Shown: piece after piece, positions 7,951 to 14,365 of the stretch
Layout of the letters: each line of letters opens with the position of its first letter
Position numbering within the stretch: the first letter of the stretch is position 1
Assembly (NCBI RefSeq): GCF_002156385.1
Contig: NZ_MVJM01000003.1
Coordinates: 414,751 to 478,750 of the forward strand
DNA length: 64,000 nt
Reading direction: 5' to 3'
DNA from: Halalkalibacter urbisdiaboli
Lineage (GTDB): Bacteria; Bacillota; Bacilli; Bacillales; Bacillaceae_D
The notes under the pieces: model-generated
What the model was told of the DNA's origin: nothing
What the model saw: only the letters and a program-made list of their open reading frames with translations
Database searches by the model: none
Position numbers and translations under genes: made by a program

Positions 7951-10308
7951 TTAGTTAGCCTCCATTTCTAAATCATCAATACGCTTTTCTAAATACTCGG
8001 TATCCTTACGTGCATTAAAACGGTCAGCTTTTTCAACTTTTACAGCAATGCTGTAATCAGGAATACCGGCAAATTTCTCGTAACGCCCTTTTGGTAAAAG
8101 GAAGTTTCCTTCCGGGAAAAGCACGCCAAGATTTCCACGTGAAATCGATACAAACTTCGCGCGACCTTGGAAGACACCAAATTGATTGTATACGACAATC
8201 CCTTCGCCTTCATTGATGCTTAATTCTTTAGCATCATCTTCGTTTATTAACACATCGTAACGACCTGATAGATTAAATGGGTCTGTTTCACTATAAACCA
8301 TCGAGTTAAATTGCTTTCCACGTCTCGTTGTAATATAAAAATCACCTGGTTTTTTATTTAAGTCAGGAATCTCAACGGAAATCAAGTTTCCTTTTCCATC
8401 TTGTGTAGGACAAATTCCGTCTTCACATAACCAAGCGCCACCCCATTGGAATACATCCCCTTGTTTTTTCAAATATTGAACCCCATCGTAATTTGGATTT
8501 GCTACAGCAATTTCGTCACGAATTGCTTGACCATCTGCGAAGTCAACTAAGTGAGCTGTTTCTGGTTTAACGCGCTTCGCCAAATCTATATAAATCTTCC
8601 ATTCAGAACGAGCTTCTTTAATTTCATTTTTATTTCCCTCAATTTTTGGTGAGAAATAGACCATTCGTTCAGTAGAAGTAGATGTTCCACCGCCATCTTG
8701 CTCATAACGAGTTTTGGCAGGTAATACAATAACGGCTTCTTTGGCATCAACAAGTGTAGAGGTGTTTAAAATAATATCTTGATGAACACGAATGTCCAAT
8801 TCAGATAATGCCTTTTCTACGAATTCAGGATCTGGCATCGTTTCAAGGAAGTTACCACCAGACATATAGTAAAGTTTAATTTTGCGTTCATTTTCTTCAG
8901 GTAGAACGATATTTTCTAAAGTTACCCCGACGATATCACCTTGCCATTTTGGAAGCTCAAATCCCCAAATCTTTTCAATTCGTTCGATATTTTCACCTTT
9001 AAAGTCGCCTCCAGGAAGAACAAATGGATCGGCACCCATTTCTCCGCTTCCTTGTACAGAAGAGTGGCCACGGAACGGCATTAATCCACTGTGCTTTCTT
9101 CCTAAATAACCACGTAGGAGAGCTAAATTTGCCACTTGTGAGATGTTATCTGTAGCAAAAGAATGCATTGTTAAGCCTAATGCCCAAGCAAATACGGCAT
9201 TTTTACTTTTTGCTAAAAGCTCTGCTAATTCAAAAATGCGTTCCTTAGAAACACCAGAGGATTCAACAATGTTGTCCCAAGAATGATTTTGAACCGTTTC
9301 TTTTAATTCTTCATATCCATTTACATGTTCGTTCACAAAAGCATGGTTTATGGCAGAGCCATGTTCTTGTTCTTCCATATCAAACCAATGCTTCATAATG
9401 CCGTGCATAAAAGCAATATCTCCACCAATATTCACTTGATAGAAGTCATCGGCTACTTTCGTTCCAAAAATGGCAGACTCGGGAACAGAAGGAACCCAGT
9501 ACTTGTCCATAGCTGGTTCTTTATAAGGATTGATTACAATGATTTTTGTTCCCTTTTTCTTTGCTTCAAGCATGTATTTTGTAGATACAGGAGATGCGTT
9601 TGAAGCAACACTTCCCCAGAACAAGAGCACATCTGTTCCAATCCAATCTTGGTAGTTCGCTGTAGATGCTCCAACACCAATGGAGCGCTTTAGTGCAGTT
9701 TTACTTGGTGAGTGACAAATACGAGATGCATTATCGATATTATTAGTTCCTAAGAACCGAGCAACCTTTGCAGCTACATAATACGACTCGTTCGTAATAC
9801 CACGAGATGTTAAATAAAAAGCATATTGCTTAGGGTTCAATTTTTTCATTTTATCTGCGATCATATCCATTGCTTCATCCCATGAAATCCGAGAAAACGT
9901 TCGCTCACCAGGTTTACGGATCAATGGATAAGGAATTCGTCCCAATTTACGAAGTTCCGTACTTGAATATTTACGTAATTCATCAATATCTGAATGAAGA
10001 ATGTCTTCTTTAATTGCAGGTGCTGTGTTTAGTCGTAAAACATTAAAGCGAGTTGTACACATATGTGGCCCTGTTAAAGTTTGGTCATATAACCCTGAAA
10101 CACCGAGAGCACAGCCATCACAAACACCTTTTGTAATGATATTCGCCGCATAGCTAAGATTATCCTTATTTTCCCATACTGTTTTTAACGAATCACGAAT
10201 ATGTTTCGGTTTAACCTTACCTAAGCCAAAAGGAATTGGACTAACCCAATGTTCCGGTGCAGGCATTTTTGACTTTTTCATAGGTCCGGGATGTTTTGTT
10301 TTCCCCAT
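7951..10308 (-). CDS. FdhF/YdeP-family molybdopterin oxidoreductase (formate dehydrogenase alpha-like)
   Basis: A 785-residue oxidoreductase of the DMSO-reductase superfamily, closest in layout to the YdeP/FdhF-like group. RICHSPS places Cys198-His199 where E. coli FdhF has SeCys-His, so Cys is the predicted molybdenum ligand. GVCDGCALGV (Cys63, Cys66) and Cys84 sit where the N-terminal iron-sulfur site is expected. There is no N-terminal ferredoxin-like extension of the kind in the ~980-residue Bacillus formate dehydrogenases, and no Tat signal, so it should be cytoplasmic. The C-terminal ~140 residues fit the molydopterin-dinucleotide-binding beta-barrel (TTRRGKQFNSMVYSE). Start ATG follows AGGAGTG. 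Neighbours fdhD, moaA and an OFA transporter support a formate-related role, but the substrate is not proven by sequence. Confidence 0.88.
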   Translation of the reverse strand: MGKTKHPGPMKKSKMPAPEHWVSPIPFGLGKVKPKHIRDSLKTVWENKDNLSYAANIITKGVCDGCALGVSGLYDQTLTGPHMCTTRFNVLRLNTAPAIKEDILHSDIDELRKYSSTELRKLGRIPYPLIRKPGERTFSRISWDEAMDMIADKMKKLNPKQYAFYLTSRGITNESYYVAAKVARFLGTNNIDNASRICHSPSKTALKRSIGVGASTANYQDWIGTDVLLFWGSVASNASPVSTKYMLEAKKKGTKIIVINPYKEPAMDKYWVPSVPESAIFGTKVADDFYQVNIGGDIAFMHGIMKHWFDMEEQEHGSAINHAFVNEHVNGYEELKETVQNHSWDNIVESSGVSKERIFELAELLAKSKNAVFAWALGLTMHSFATDNISQVANLALLRGYLGRKHSGLMPFRGHSSVQGSGEMGADPFVLPGGDFKGENIERIEKIWGFELPKWQGDIVGVTLENIVLPEENERKIKLYYMSGGNFLETMPDPEFVEKALSELDIRVHQDIILNTSTLVDAKEAVIVLPAKTRYEQDGGGTSTSTERMVYFSPKIEGNKNEIKEARSEWKIYIDLAKRVKPETAHLVDFADGQAIRDEIAVANPNYDGVQYLKKQGDVFQWGGAWLCEDGICPTQDGKGNLISVEIPDLNKKPGDFYITTRRGKQFNSMVYSETDPFNLSGRYDVLINEDDAKELSINEGEGIVVYNQFGVFQGRAKFVSISRGNLGVLFPEGNFLLPKGRYEKFAGIPDYSIAVKVEKADRFNARKDTEYLEKRIDDLEMEAN

Positions 10309-10392: not shown

Positions 10393-10438
10393 AAAAAAAC
10401 CACCGCTCTTTTCTGTAAGAAAGAAAAGGACGGTGGTT
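10393..10438 (-). terminator. Leader terminator upstream of the oxidoreductase
   Basis: Read on the minus strand, a long GC-rich-based stem (AACCACCG pairing with CGGTGGTT, with further pairing of CTTTTCT and AGAAAAG) is followed by a run of U. It lies 84 bases before the oxidoreductase start and 42 bases after the DUF2294 stop. Its first four bases (AACC) are shared with the closing stem of the upstream structured motif, as in an attenuator. Confidence 0.85.
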
Positions 10439-10473
10439 AAGTCTTGAGCAGGGGCGCTACCAAGTGCCAAACC
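10435..10473 (-). promoter_or_regulatory. Structured leader motif, copy A (candidate riboswitch or antiterminator)
   Basis: Minus-strand RNA that begins GGUUUGGCACUUGG, continues with the core UAGCGCCCCUGCU and closes CAAGACUUAACC. GGUU pairs with the final AACC, CUUG with CAAG, and the conserved core fills the apical loop. The same core, UAGCGNCCCUG, occurs twice more in the window, both upstream of the co-oriented OFA transporter. The 3' AACC is also the first arm of the following terminator, so the two folds exclude each other. I do not recognise it as TPP, SAM, FMN, purine, THF, Moco, ykkC, preQ1 or fluoride type. Confidence 0.6.
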
Positions 10474-10479
10474 TTATTA

Positions 10480-10845
10480 TTATAAAAACTTTTTTTCAAT
10501 ATTTTCATCAAAAACGAAAATGGACATTCCAAAATCACGTTCAATATCAATATCAACAAATAAATCAAGGTATTTACATCCTAAAAACTCTTCCATTTCA
10601 GTAGGATGATTTTTGCGATACATATCTTTAACCATTTCAGTTCTGGCTGCTCGGAGCATTTGTTTCCCATCATCTGCAGAGGCAATAAATTTTTCGATTG
10701 GTGATAAATTTCCTTCCATCTCGCAAATAGCCCAATTTTTACAAAATGTTGTATTAATTTTGCTCGGACCTTTTCCCATATGTTTTTTACGAAAAGCCCG
10801 AACTAAATTACTAAATTCCGCTTCGTATTTATTCATCGACTTCAA
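10480..10845 (-). CDS. DUF2294-family protein
   Basis: A 121-residue soluble protein with the pattern of the DUF2294 family: an N-terminal helix with KHMGKGP (residues ~21-27), a central FCKNWAICEMEGNLSPIEKF segment and a C-terminal hydrophobic strand (DLFVDIDIERDFGMSIFVFD). No signal peptide or membrane segment is present. It lies 47 bases after the OFA transporter and is transcribed with it; its stop codon is followed within 7 bases by leader motif A and then the oxidoreductase gene. The family has been labelled Na-translocating in some databases, but I see nothing in this sequence to support ion transport. Biochemical function is unknown; position suggests a role tied to the formate/oxidoreductase system. 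Confidence 0.8.
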   Translation of the reverse strand: MKSMNKYEAEFSNLVRAFRKKHMGKGPSKINTTFCKNWAICEMEGNLSPIEKFIASADDGKQMLRAARTEMVKDMYRKNHPTEMEEFLGCKYLDLFVDIDIERDFGMSIFVFDENIEKKFL

Positions 10846-10892
10846 CCCTTTTTTTATTCTAAAGAAAAGGGTAGTGTTTGTTAGTCAAAAAG

Positions 10893-12155
10893 TCAACTTG
10901 CATGCTTAACCGTTTTGTCCTTTTCTGCGCGGAGTTTCTTCACATCAATTGCAGTGAAAATCGAAACAATCAATGCAACGACAAACAGTCCACCAAAGAA
11001 TGATAAGCTTCCTGAGTAGCTACCAGTTGTATCTTTAATCCATGCAGCGAATAGTGGACCGACAAGACCGGCTGCTGCCCAAGCTGTTAAGATATAGCCG
11101 TGGATGGCTCCCAATTGCTTCGTTCCAAATACATCACCGATAAAGGCTGGGATTGAAGCAAAACCTCCACCGTAGCAAGTATAAACGATAACAACAAAAA
11201 TCGAGAAGATCACTTGACTCGTGATGGTTGGCAATAGGAAGAAGATAGGGATTTGCAGGACGAAAAATGTAATATACGTATTAACTCGTCCGATGTAGTC
11301 TGAGATTGAAGCCCAGGCAAGGCGACCAATTCCATTTGCAATACCTAACGCTCCAACTAATGTTGCTGCCTCGCCAGTAGATAAGCCAATGCTTTCCTCT
11401 GCTAATGGTTTCATCGCAGAAATAATGGCGATACCACAGGTAACATTTATAAATAACATGATCCACAAGAAATAAAAACGTTTTGTCTTTATTGCTTCAT
11501 TTGCTGTTAATTGAGATAAGTCTTCTCTAACTTTTTTAGCTCCTGATTGAACTTTTTCTTTAAATCCTTCAGGTGCCCATCCCTCAGGTGGTTTTTCTAA
11601 ATAAAGAGAGGATAATATCATTATAATAAAATAAGAACCACCTAAAATATAAAATGTTTGTGCAATTCCTACACTCGAGATTAATGAATTCATAATTGGG
11701 CTAGCGATAGCAGCAGCAAATCCAAATCCCATAATAGCCAGTCCAGTGGCTAGGCCTCTACGATCCGGGAACCATTTTACTAAAGTTGAAACGGGTGCGA
11801 TATAGCCTACCCCTAAACCAACTCCACCTAAAACACCATAAAATAAATAGAGTAATGGCAGTGAACTCATACTTACAGCAAAACCTGATCCCGCGATTCC
11901 AATCGCAAAAAAGATTGTTGATACAAGACCTGCTTTTCTTGGACCGTGTTTCTCTACAAAGTGCCCCATAAAAGCAGCTGATAACCCTAAAAATAAAATG
12001 GCAATACTAAAGGTTAATTGTACTTGACTAGATGACCAGCCAAATTGTTCAATAAGTGGAGTTGTAAAATTACTCCAGGCATAAACAGATCCAATTGAAA
12101 TATGAATTCCAACGGCTGCTAATGCAATTAGCCAACGATTTTTCACTTTTTCCAT
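10893..12155 (-). CDS. OFA-family MFS transporter (oxalate/formate antiporter-like)
   Basis: A 420-residue major facilitator protein with about twelve hydrophobic helices. The opening NRWLIALAAVGIHISIGSVY and the following YAWSNFTTPL are typical of the oxalate:formate antiporter family, and the cytoplasmic loop after helix 2 has the MFS-type GHFVEKHGPRKA. The central loop (~195-225) is polar. In the cell it would move small carboxylates such as formate or oxalate across the membrane, which fits its position ahead of a formate dehydrogenase-like enzyme. The substrate is inferred from family and context. ATG follows GGAGAGG, 20 bases after the leader terminator, so its expression should depend on read-through of that terminator. 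Confidence 0.9.
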   Translation of the reverse strand: MEKVKNRWLIALAAVGIHISIGSVYAWSNFTTPLIEQFGWSSSQVQLTFSIAILFLGLSAAFMGHFVEKHGPRKAGLVSTIFFAIGIAGSGFAVSMSSLPLLYLFYGVLGGVGLGVGYIAPVSTLVKWFPDRRGLATGLAIMGFGFAAAIASPIMNSLISSVGIAQTFYILGGSYFIIMILSSLYLEKPPEGWAPEGFKEKVQSGAKKVREDLSQLTANEAIKTKRFYFLWIMLFINVTCGIAIISAMKPLAEESIGLSTGEAATLVGALGIANGIGRLAWASISDYIGRVNTYITFFVLQIPIFFLLPTITSQVIFSIFVVIVYTCYGGGFASIPAFIGDVFGTKQLGAIHGYILTAWAAAGLVGPLFAAWIKDTTGSYSGSLSFFGGLFVVALIVSIFTAIDVKKLRAEKDKTVKHAS

Positions 12156-12175
12156 CTACTACCTCTCCTTTTCAC

Positions 12176-12236
12176 AAAAAAACCGTCGCCTTTCCTTTTT
12201 GGAACATCGTGATCCCAAAAAGAAATTGCGACGGTT
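12176..12236 (-). terminator. Leader terminator upstream of the OFA transporter
   Basis: On the minus strand AACCGUCGC pairs with GCGACGGUU across a long A/U-rich upper stem (pairing of UUUCUUUUUGG with CCAAAAAGGAAA), followed by seven U. It ends 20 bases before the transporter start codon, leaving room only for the ribosome site. The first AACC is shared with the closing stem of the motif at 12233-12266. Confidence 0.87.
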
Positions 12237-12266
12237 AGTATCTAGCAGGGACGCTACTATCAAACC
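12233..12266 (-). promoter_or_regulatory. Structured leader motif, copy B2 (gene-proximal of a tandem pair)
   Basis: Minus-strand RNA GGUUUGAUAG, then core UAGCGUCCCUGCU, then AGAUACUAACC. GGUU pairs with AACC, and AGUA can pair with UACU. The core matches copy A in ten of eleven bases and the outer GGUU/AACC clamp is identical. As in copy A, AACC is reused by the terminator that follows at once, so formation of the motif should favour read-through into the transporter gene. Confidence 0.6.
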
Positions 12267-12293
12267 AACAGTAATCGCTTTCAACTGCAACTT

Positions 12294-12330
12294 ATTTGAC
12301 CGAAAACAGGGTCGCTATCTCGTATCAAAA
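12294..12330 (-). promoter_or_regulatory. Structured leader motif, copy B1 (promoter-proximal of a tandem pair)
   Basis: Minus-strand RNA with UUUGA pairing with UCAAA, CGA pairing with UCG, and the loop core UAGCGACCCUGUU. The stem bases differ from copies A and B2 while the core is kept, which is the pattern expected if pairing and core are both selected. It has no terminator of its own: 27 bases of spacer lead straight into copy B2. It lies about 20 bases after the predicted transcription start. Confidence 0.5.
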
Positions 12331-12358
12331 TTGTTACAGATTTTTGAACTGCATTTGT

Positions 12359-12387
12359 ATAATAACGTGAAATGGACACAAATTCAA
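12359..12387 (-). promoter_or_regulatory. Candidate sigma-A promoter for the OFA transporter transcript
   Basis: On the minus strand TTGAAT (12382-12387), a 17-base spacer and TATTAT (12359-12364). Transcription would start near 12352 and give a leader of about 200 bases holding both motif copies and the terminator. The gene-free stretch 12156-12518 is explained mainly by this leader. Confidence 0.6.
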
Positions 12388-12518: not shown

Positions 12519-13310
12519 ATGGATTTATTGTCTACCCAACGCTTAATTCAGCGATATAATCATAAAGAATGGACAGAAGAATTCGATGATATTGTAAAAG
12601 AATATCCACTAACGATACATGTAAATGACCAAGAATTCGCGACAATTGTTTGTTCACCAGAATATCTAGAAGAAATGGTTGTTGGTTTTTTAGCTTCAGA
12701 GGGAATGCTCCGAATTCATGAACAAGACGTGAAAAAAATAATAATTGATGAAGAAAAGGGTTTTGCATATGTGACATTAACGAAAGACCATGTTGCGAGC
12801 CAAGATTTTTATTCTAAGCGCTTTATCGGATCTTGTTGTGGGAAAAGTCGGCAATCCTTTTATTTTCAAAATGATGTGAAAACAGCAAAAACATCCATGA
12901 CAAAGACAACAATAAAAGCTGAGCGGTGTTTAGCATTGATGAAACAAGTGCAGCAAGACAGTGAAGTATTCCTAGCAACTGGTGGGGTTCATAATGCCGC
13001 AATTGCTACACAAGATGATATAATAGTGACAAGAGCAGATATTGGTCGACATAATGCGCTTGATAAATTATTTGGTCATTGCTTAATTAACCGAGTAGCA
13101 GTCCGAGACAAAGTTCTTTTGTTTAGTGGTCGAATTTCTTCTGAAGTTTTGCTTAAGGCTGCAAAGATGGGGGTGGGGATTATGCTCTCTAAATCTGCAC
13201 CGACTGATTTGGCATTAGCAATGGCTGATGAATTAAATATGACAACGGCTGGATTTATTAGAGGCGAACGGATGAATGTGTATACGCACGCTCATCGAAT
13301 CGTTCGATAA
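12519..13310 (+). CDS. fdhD: FdhD, sulfurtransferase for formate dehydrogenase maturation
   Basis: A 263-residue FdhD-family protein. In E. coli FdhD carries sulfur from IscS to the molybdenum cofactor before insertion into formate dehydrogenase. Family signatures seen: [13 protein letters not shown] (near residue 150), [12 protein letters not shown] (near residue 170), [16 protein letters not shown] and the C-terminal [17 protein letters not shown]. The cysteine motif is unusual: instead of CxxC there are adjacent Cys106-Cys107 in [15 protein letters not shown] at 12519 follows AGGTG nine bases upstream. It diverges from the OFA transporter and precedes moaA by 20 bases, forming a short cofactor operon that serves the nearby oxidoreductase. 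Confidence 0.94.
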
Positions 13311-13336
13311 TACTTTGCGCTAGAAGGAGGATGGAG

Positions 13337-14365
13337 ATGATGAAACTTAAAGAGGCTAAAATGTTCGATAAGCTGAAACGACCACTTCGGGATTTACGGA
13401 TATCTGTTACGGATCGCTGTAATTTTCGTTGTCATTACTGTATGCCAGCGGAACTCTTTGGCCCAGACTATCCTTTTTTAAAGAAGGATGAAGTCTTAAG
13501 CTTTGAAGAGTTAAATCGCCTTGTTTTCCTCTTTCATGAAGCAGCATCACTTGAAAAGCTTAGAATAACCGGTGGGGAGCCGTTGATGCGTAAAGACGTT
13601 GACAAGCTCATTGAGATGCTTTCCAAAACGACAGGAATTACTGATATTGCGATGACAACGAACGGCATCCTTTTACCTAAATATGCGCAGAAGTTAAAAA
13701 ATGCAGGTCTGAAACGGGTGACAGTTAGTTTAGATAGTTTAGATAGTAAACGATTTGGAGAAATTAACGGTCGAGGAATCGGAATTGAACCAGTTCTTGA
13801 AGGAATGGAAGCAGCAAGTCAGGCTGGACTCGGTGTGAAAGTCAATATGGTCGTTCAAAAAGGGGTTAATGACCAGGATATTATACCGATGGCTAAATTT
13901 TTTAGAGAAAAAGGTTACATTCTTCGGTTTATTGAGTATATGGATGTCGGTAATACAAATGGTTGGTGTTTTGATGATGTGATATCCAAAAAAGAAATTA
14001 TCTCAAAAATTGACGAAGAAATGCCACTTGAACCAATTGCGCCGAATTATCCTGGTGAGGTTGCTACAAGATTTCGCTACAAGGGTTCAGATGATGAAAT
14101 TGGTGTGATTTCATCCGTGTCTGACGCTTTTTGTGGAGCATGTAACCGAGCACGTTTATCAGTAGAAGGTAAGCTATATACTTGTTTATTCGCAACAAAA
14201 GGATTTGATTTTCGGGAACTACTTCGTTCTGATGCAACGGATGAGGACATAAAAGCAACTTTGGTTGATTATTGGGAAAAGCGAGAGGACAAATATTCTG
14301 AAGAACGATCGGAAGAATCATCTAAAACTCGAGCGAAAATTGAAATGTCACATATCGGTGGGTAA
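13337..14365 (+). CDS. moaA: GTP 3',8-cyclase MoaA (molybdenum cofactor synthesis)
   Basis: Radical-SAM enzyme for the first step of molybdopterin synthesis, converting GTP to 3',8-cyclo-GTP. With the start used here the N-terminal radical-SAM cluster motif is Cys28-x3-Cys32-x2-Cys35 (CNFRCHYC). The second 4Fe-4S site is [18 protein letters not shown] near residue 262, and the chain ends in the conserved Gly-Gly (HIGG) needed for activity in this family. Length (342) is normal. An in-frame ATG at 13331 directly abuts the AAGGAGG site (13324-13330) and is too close; ATG 13337 or 13340 is better spaced. No moaC, moaE or mogA is nearby, so the rest of the pathway must be elsewhere. Confidence 0.95.

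Follow-up and report, generated by a model that had tools for sequence, protein, structure and literature searches.

Organization of the locus

Within the 64-kb window, by which we mean the whole stretch of DNA that was analyzed, three genes lie on the minus strand: an OFA/MCT-type MFS transporter gene (10893..12155), a DUF2294/MpsC gene (10480..10836), and a gene for an FdhF/YdeP family molybdopterin oxidoreductase (7951..10308; TIGR01701, 812.9 bits with a cut-off of 582). On the plus strand, fdhD (12519-13310) and moaA (13331-14365), each above the cut-off of its family (TIGR00129 and TIGR02666, respectively), provide the divergent context. The OFA transporter matches MFS_1 and scores 469.9 bits against NF049980 (cut-off 320); it is above cut-off as an L-lactate MFS transporter and below cut-off as an oxalate/formate antiporter, so that formate is not assured as its substrate. 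The DUF2294 protein, of what we call type I below, belongs to PF10057 (MpsC) at 117.2 bits, the Pfam gathering cut-off being 23, and its co-occurrence with the RNA element described here makes it the candidate RNA-binding partner.

Three copies of a conserved core in the leaders

The initial annotation described three minus-strand copies of a core sequence, preceded by UUUG, in the leaders of the oxidoreductase and transporter genes. The copies themselves are as described: TAGCGNCCCTG occurs at 12317-12307 (copy A, distal, before the OFA gene), 12256-12246 (copy B, proximal, before the same gene), and 10459-10449 (copy C, before ydeP, between the DUF2294 and YdeP genes), and an exact match is found nowhere else in the 4.55 Mb genome, where the reversed control pattern occurs twice. 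With one mismatch allowed, three matches appear in 12 of 100 shuffles of the window, which is not rare; the count of cores in the window is thus unexceptional, and the case rests on structure, on clustering and position in leaders, and on conservation.

The preceding UUUG does not extend to the family as a whole. Among 120 relatives, the exact pattern TTTG-N(3-12)-core gave mostly chance matches, about as many as its reversed control, and the real matches were only those between DUF2294 and YdeP genes; a pattern scan of genome_contigs yielded 11 matches, 6 of them genuine, and a scan of viral_contigs yielded no match. What is conserved is a 4-bp stem, RYAG/CUGY, that closes a loop of 5-6 nt, with a near-invariant tip (the loop being CGNNC in 76 of 105 sequences and CGNNNC in 23). 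Below the tip, the lower stems vary freely in sequence while their pairs covary. From this combination of a conserved tip of about 13 nt and freely varying lower stems, we infer something nearer to a protein recognition site than to a ligand pocket.

Covarying hairpins that overlap intrinsic terminators

Each core is the tip of a minus-strand hairpin supported by folding and by covariance model R1: A at 12291..12333 (E 7.4e-9), B at 12229..12272 (E 2.9e-8), and C at 10431..10475 (E 1.7e-13). Hairpin A overlaps no terminator of its own. The 3' arms of B and C, by comparison, overlap intrinsic terminators recognized from sequence and folding, one in the OFA leader (12176..12236, minus strand; AACCGTCGC ... 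GCGACGGTT-T7) and one in the ydeP leader (10393..10438, minus strand; AACCACCG ... CGGTGGTT-T7). Since the 3' arm of the hairpin is in both cases the 5' arm of the terminator, hairpin and terminator are mutually exclusive, as is general for protein-dependent antiterminators; together they fold at -38.4 kcal/mol for B and its terminator and at -28.9 kcal/mol for C. Across 151 elements, an overlap of 7 net pairs or more with the terminator arm was found in 91 of 111 non-distal (B/C-type) copies and in none of the shuffles, and most distal copies lack such an overlap.

Covariation supports the paired stems at two depths of sampling. In a MAFFT alignment of 14 sequences, double-change cells numbered 18, compared with 6.0 in shuffles, and the covariation score of 0.280 (0.119 shuffled) was reached in 0 of 500 shuffles and dropped to 0.04-0.14 when the pairings were slid; most of these rows were found by a pattern that contains the tip, so that tip invariance in this set is partly a product of selection. 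Sequences added later were retrieved with the covariance model, and the resulting alignment of 107 sequences, which includes one false row (L102), gave 218 double-change cells against 75 and covariation of 0.415 against 0.177 in shuffles, counts that lean towards structure because the alignment was fitted to the model. The observation in the initial annotation that stem bases change while pairing is kept, as well as its readings of a selected RNA structure and of a possible antiterminator, are thus borne out by covariation, by conservation across genomes, and by the arms that B and C share with terminators.

Two further features of the OFA leader were noted. Upstream of hairpin A lies a promoter-like site found by consensus scan, TTGAAT-17-TATTAT (12359..12387, minus strand), which with 9 of 12 consensus positions is no better than regional chance and is suggestive only in its position. 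Between A and B, at 12270..12283 on the minus strand, is a cre-like site, TGAAAGCGATTACT, with one mismatch to TGWNANCGNTNWCA. The A-B linker is 13-42 nt long (median 22), and matches to the cre pattern with at most one mismatch occur in 7 of 40 such linkers, compared with 0.1% of shuffles. A CcpA site conserved in every A-B linker was considered and rejected, as the site is present in a subset only; in this genome and in some relatives, it suggests that possible CcpA-mediated catabolite control may be laid on top.

Phylogenetic range and gene context

A covariance model built from the 14 sequences, for the kind of search that the initial annotation had recommended, found matches in 77 of the 397 genomes surveyed from the order, spread over 35 of 135 genera; manual inspection brought the number to 79 of 397. 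A second covariance model gave matches in 49 of 399 genomes drawn from the class. In a control set of 299 genomes from the phylum, the only matches were in the home genome and, weakly, in G903 (E 0.003), where no homologue of the operon was found nearby. One match in the order, in G407, was rejected as false, as it lies inside an ABC-ATPase open reading frame on the opposite strand.

As the annotation had anticipated, matches associate with ydeP/fdhF-type, OFA, and DUF2294 genes. The usual order is a divergent fdhD-moaA pair followed by A and B, OFA, DUF2294, C, and YdeP. Variants of this layout include loci from which OFA is absent (L073, L077), one in which C precedes a genuine formate dehydrogenase alpha subunit (TIGR01591; L100), two in which C precedes fdhD-moaA (L141, L146), and two in which C is itself tandem (L140, L143). 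The usual layout and its variants together identify the targets of the type I element as genes of formate oxidation and transport and Moco-related genes. In Bacillus pinisoli, a second tandem A+B leader (L075, 5139-5033, minus strand) precedes a 56-aa open reading frame with no Pfam match.

The element follows the DUF2294 subtype

The PF10057 family is present in all 55 element-bearing genomes tested. A DUF2294 protein search of the 397 order genomes gave a bimodal distribution, with type I proteins at 76-100% identity (79 genomes) and type II proteins at 42-54%. Of the 77 genomes matched by the covariance model, 76 carry type I DUF2294, the exception being the false match in G407, and the remaining three type I genomes, G064, G195, and G309, which the model did not match, carry tandem cores in the OFA leader whose lower stems have diverged. 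After inspection, the element is therefore found in 79 of 79 type I genomes, and by this search in 0 of the 318 others (Fisher p ~1e-85, a value that overstates independence because the genomes are related, for an association that is inflated by linkage because type I DUF2294 is mostly encoded in the same operon as the element). In G336 and G356, the DUF2294 gene lies away from the element-bearing operon.

The metabolic genes provide the complementary comparison. Among 71 genomes without type I DUF2294, YdeP is found at 68-87% identity in 5 (one of them in the same genus) and OFA at 74-79% identity in 9, and at these 14 OFA/YdeP loci no type I element was found (best E 0.017). The element follows the DUF2294 subtype, not the metabolic genes. 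Some observations count against DUF2294 as the reader of the hairpins. PF10057 has a wide distribution that takes in genomes with neither type of element. In most Bacillaceae, C is single and the OFA leader has two copies. At the protein level, the strongly basic N-terminus found in both types (the first 35 residues have a pI of 10.1) speaks for the DUF2294 reading, and the whole protein, which is not basic (pI 6.1), against it. A structural model of the protein reached a pLDDT of 94.8, and fold comparison of that model returned no confident relative and none to an RNA-binding fold, an absence that shows nothing. Family size varies as well: one 3.1 Mb genome (G288, locus L094) has 24 PF10057 matches, an unusual expansion.

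A second element type has diverged together with its DUF2294

Genomes with type II DUF2294 have a divergent formate dehydrogenase gene whose leader carries a tandem hairpin and terminator of the same build. The type II hairpin B reads GGAUUGGU..UUUAGUA-N5/6-UGCUAA..ACUA.UCCACC, and UUGGU...UAGUA...UGCUA...ACUA is common to hairpin B of both types. The covariance models of the two types do not detect each other, and from the shared skeleton we infer that their hairpins are homologous. Model R3, for type II, matched 27 of the 31 genomes with type II DUF2294 (E<1e-6) and 0 of the 7 with type I; among 40 genomes with neither DUF2294 type, it gave one chance-level match and nothing better than E 0.03. 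Three type II genomes (G161, G291, G392) have no element by R3, which counts against the DUF2294 reading.

In genus g28, DUF2294 paralogues occur with elements placed before DUF2294-PsiE, before a Gly_transporter/TRIC-like gene, and before the Mrp-like ATPase gene of a Moco cluster; a further element stands before formate dehydrogenase. The differing tip of the type II element, which varies with its DUF2294, and the paralogues beside elements indicate that element and DUF2294 are linked in both movement and divergence, even at loci that lack a nearby formate gene. In G210, the gene for a DUF2294 of 54% identity lies ahead of an NAD-dependent formate dehydrogenase gene, and between the two are a diverged hairpin resembling an antiterminator (tip GUAC-CUA-GUGC) and a terminator (L205, 4826-4920); this hairpin is perhaps a third RNA subtype.

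Other arrangements were also seen. At two loci (L239, ~3959, minus strand; L242, ~3345, plus strand), the leader of the DUF2294 gene itself contains a type II element; a PsiE-family gene comes after DUF2294, and the neighborhood lacks formate genes. Two divergent DUF2294 genes (48% and 44%) are present in G443 (L193), where the element tip is UAGUG, not UAGCG (4808-4766 and 2928-2887, minus strand). At L208, L210, and L224, terminator-like hairpins with GATGGTGG arms lie between type II DUF2294 and a Moco gene cluster, with no recognized element.

Proposed mechanism and alternatives

The initial annotation could match the motif to no known class, and our comparison with Rfam 15 likewise found none that fits: the window gave nothing at gathering score besides an ordinary L19 ribosomal protein leader (RF00556, 53131-53169, plus strand, 42.5 bits), the leaders alone gave nothing relevant up to E 5, and four related loci matched no family. 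A candidate match to ErsA/Pseudomon-1 (27.9 bits, where 50 would be needed) was rejected, as it merely reflects a hairpin with a terminator. Text searches of the open-access literature found no match to the motif in papers on structured-RNA discovery in bacterial genomes. What emerges is an antiterminator RNA class in two subtypes that is real, widespread, and apparently undescribed. The RAT antiterminators of LicT/SacT/BglG are single protein-stabilized hairpins whose 3' arm overlaps a terminator. Hairpins B and C share that overlap with them, but the present element is also tandem, the RAT consensus appears to be absent, and no PTS genes lie near the element in the loci examined.

We consider it likely, though well short of certain, that A, B, and C belong to an undescribed class of cis-acting antiterminator RNA and that their reader is DUF2294 (MpsC), the product of the neighboring gene. 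In the default state, the transcript of the leader would fold into the intrinsic terminator, and transcription would end before OFA or YdeP. DUF2294 would bind the conserved tips, either of the tandem A+B or of C alone, probably on a formate-related or a redox/Moco signal, and the bound protein would stabilize the antiterminator and hold the 5' arm of the terminator, letting RNA polymerase read through. With the DUF2294 gene downstream of A and B, the proposed control would be positive autoregulation. For DUF2294 as the putative reader there is strong circumstantial evidence in the hairpins and their covariation, the terminator overlap, the range of the element, and its co-occurrence and co-divergence with the protein.

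The alternative that survives best, while still unlikely in our judgment, is a riboswitch that binds a small molecule directly, be it formate, oxalate/lactate, an oxyanion, or a Moco-related compound, with DUF2294 a mere member of the regulon. Tandem arrangement, as in A+B, is known in some riboswitches, and coupling of the leader to a terminator and the metabolic coherence of type I targets also fit. Against such a ligand, the conserved nucleotides are confined to a small hairpin tip, the type II tip differs though the targets are the same, type II targets extend to PsiE, TRIC-like, and Mrp-like genes, and the element tracks the DUF2294 subtype rather than the target genes. Of the annotation's suggestion that formate, oxalate, or molybdenum cofactor is the ligand, the association with formate- and Moco-type genes therefore stands, while the riboswitch reading becomes less likely. 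The Moco riboswitch candidate in Rfam, known from leaders of Moco and formate dehydrogenase genes (PMC2408646), shares with our element this gene context, but the element is far smaller and has no Rfam match.

We regard as distinctly improbable an antiterminator bound by some other RNA-binding protein encoded elsewhere, with DUF2294 an enzyme accessory factor travelling with the regulon. Linkage alone would yield much of the co-occurrence, given that type I DUF2294 is mostly intra-operonic, but the RNA co-diverges with the DUF2294 subtype, DUF2294 paralogues adjoin elements without any formate gene, and no other gene among those tested has the same distribution.

That the copies are chance repeats or ordinary terminators without regulatory structure is hardly credible: three one-mismatch cores are within shuffle expectation for the window alone, but exclusivity across the genome, covariation, terminator overlap, and a phylum control with one weak match besides the home genome speak against chance, and cross-genome matches together with covariation refute it. 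Least tenable of all, with next to no chance of being right, is the view that the element is an ANTAR target under the control of an ANTAR-domain regulator: the targets of EutV, NasR, and AmiR resemble A+B in being tandem hairpins with conserved apical loops, the second of which excludes an intrinsic terminator (PMC3369931), but their loop is a hexanucleotide, its first base an A and its fourth a G (PMC3369931), rather than CGNNC, C before ydeP is usually a single hairpin, the linker of 13-42 nt exceeds the 5-12 nt of eut leaders, and the identity was rejected because an ANTAR domain (PF03861) is missing from 37 of the 55 genomes that bear the element.

Implications for the DUF2294/MpsC family

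The proposed partner shares its Pfam family, PF10057, with MpsC of Staphylococcus aureus, whose gene lies behind a weak terminator and is dispensable for MpsAB function (PMC6689103). The open-access papers searched describe neither a regulatory nor an RNA-related role for the DUF2294/MpsC family. By a narrow balance, we favor the broader view that DUF2294 is an unrecognized family of sequence-specific RNA-binding antiterminators that responds to a redox or one-carbon signal and comprises at least two RNA-protein specificity classes, co-diverged across Bacilli; the two subtypes, with their different tips, offer a natural opportunity for a specificity swap. If the proposed mechanism is correct, DUF2294/MpsC, whose Pfam name comes from a bicarbonate-transport operon that works without it, would gain its first function, and the switching of formate and Moco enzyme genes in many Bacilli would be accounted for. 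A new RNA class and a family of RNA-binding regulators would then join the short list of protein-controlled antitermination systems, and, if the family consists of antiterminators, many uncharacterized DUF2294 genes elsewhere may be regulators.
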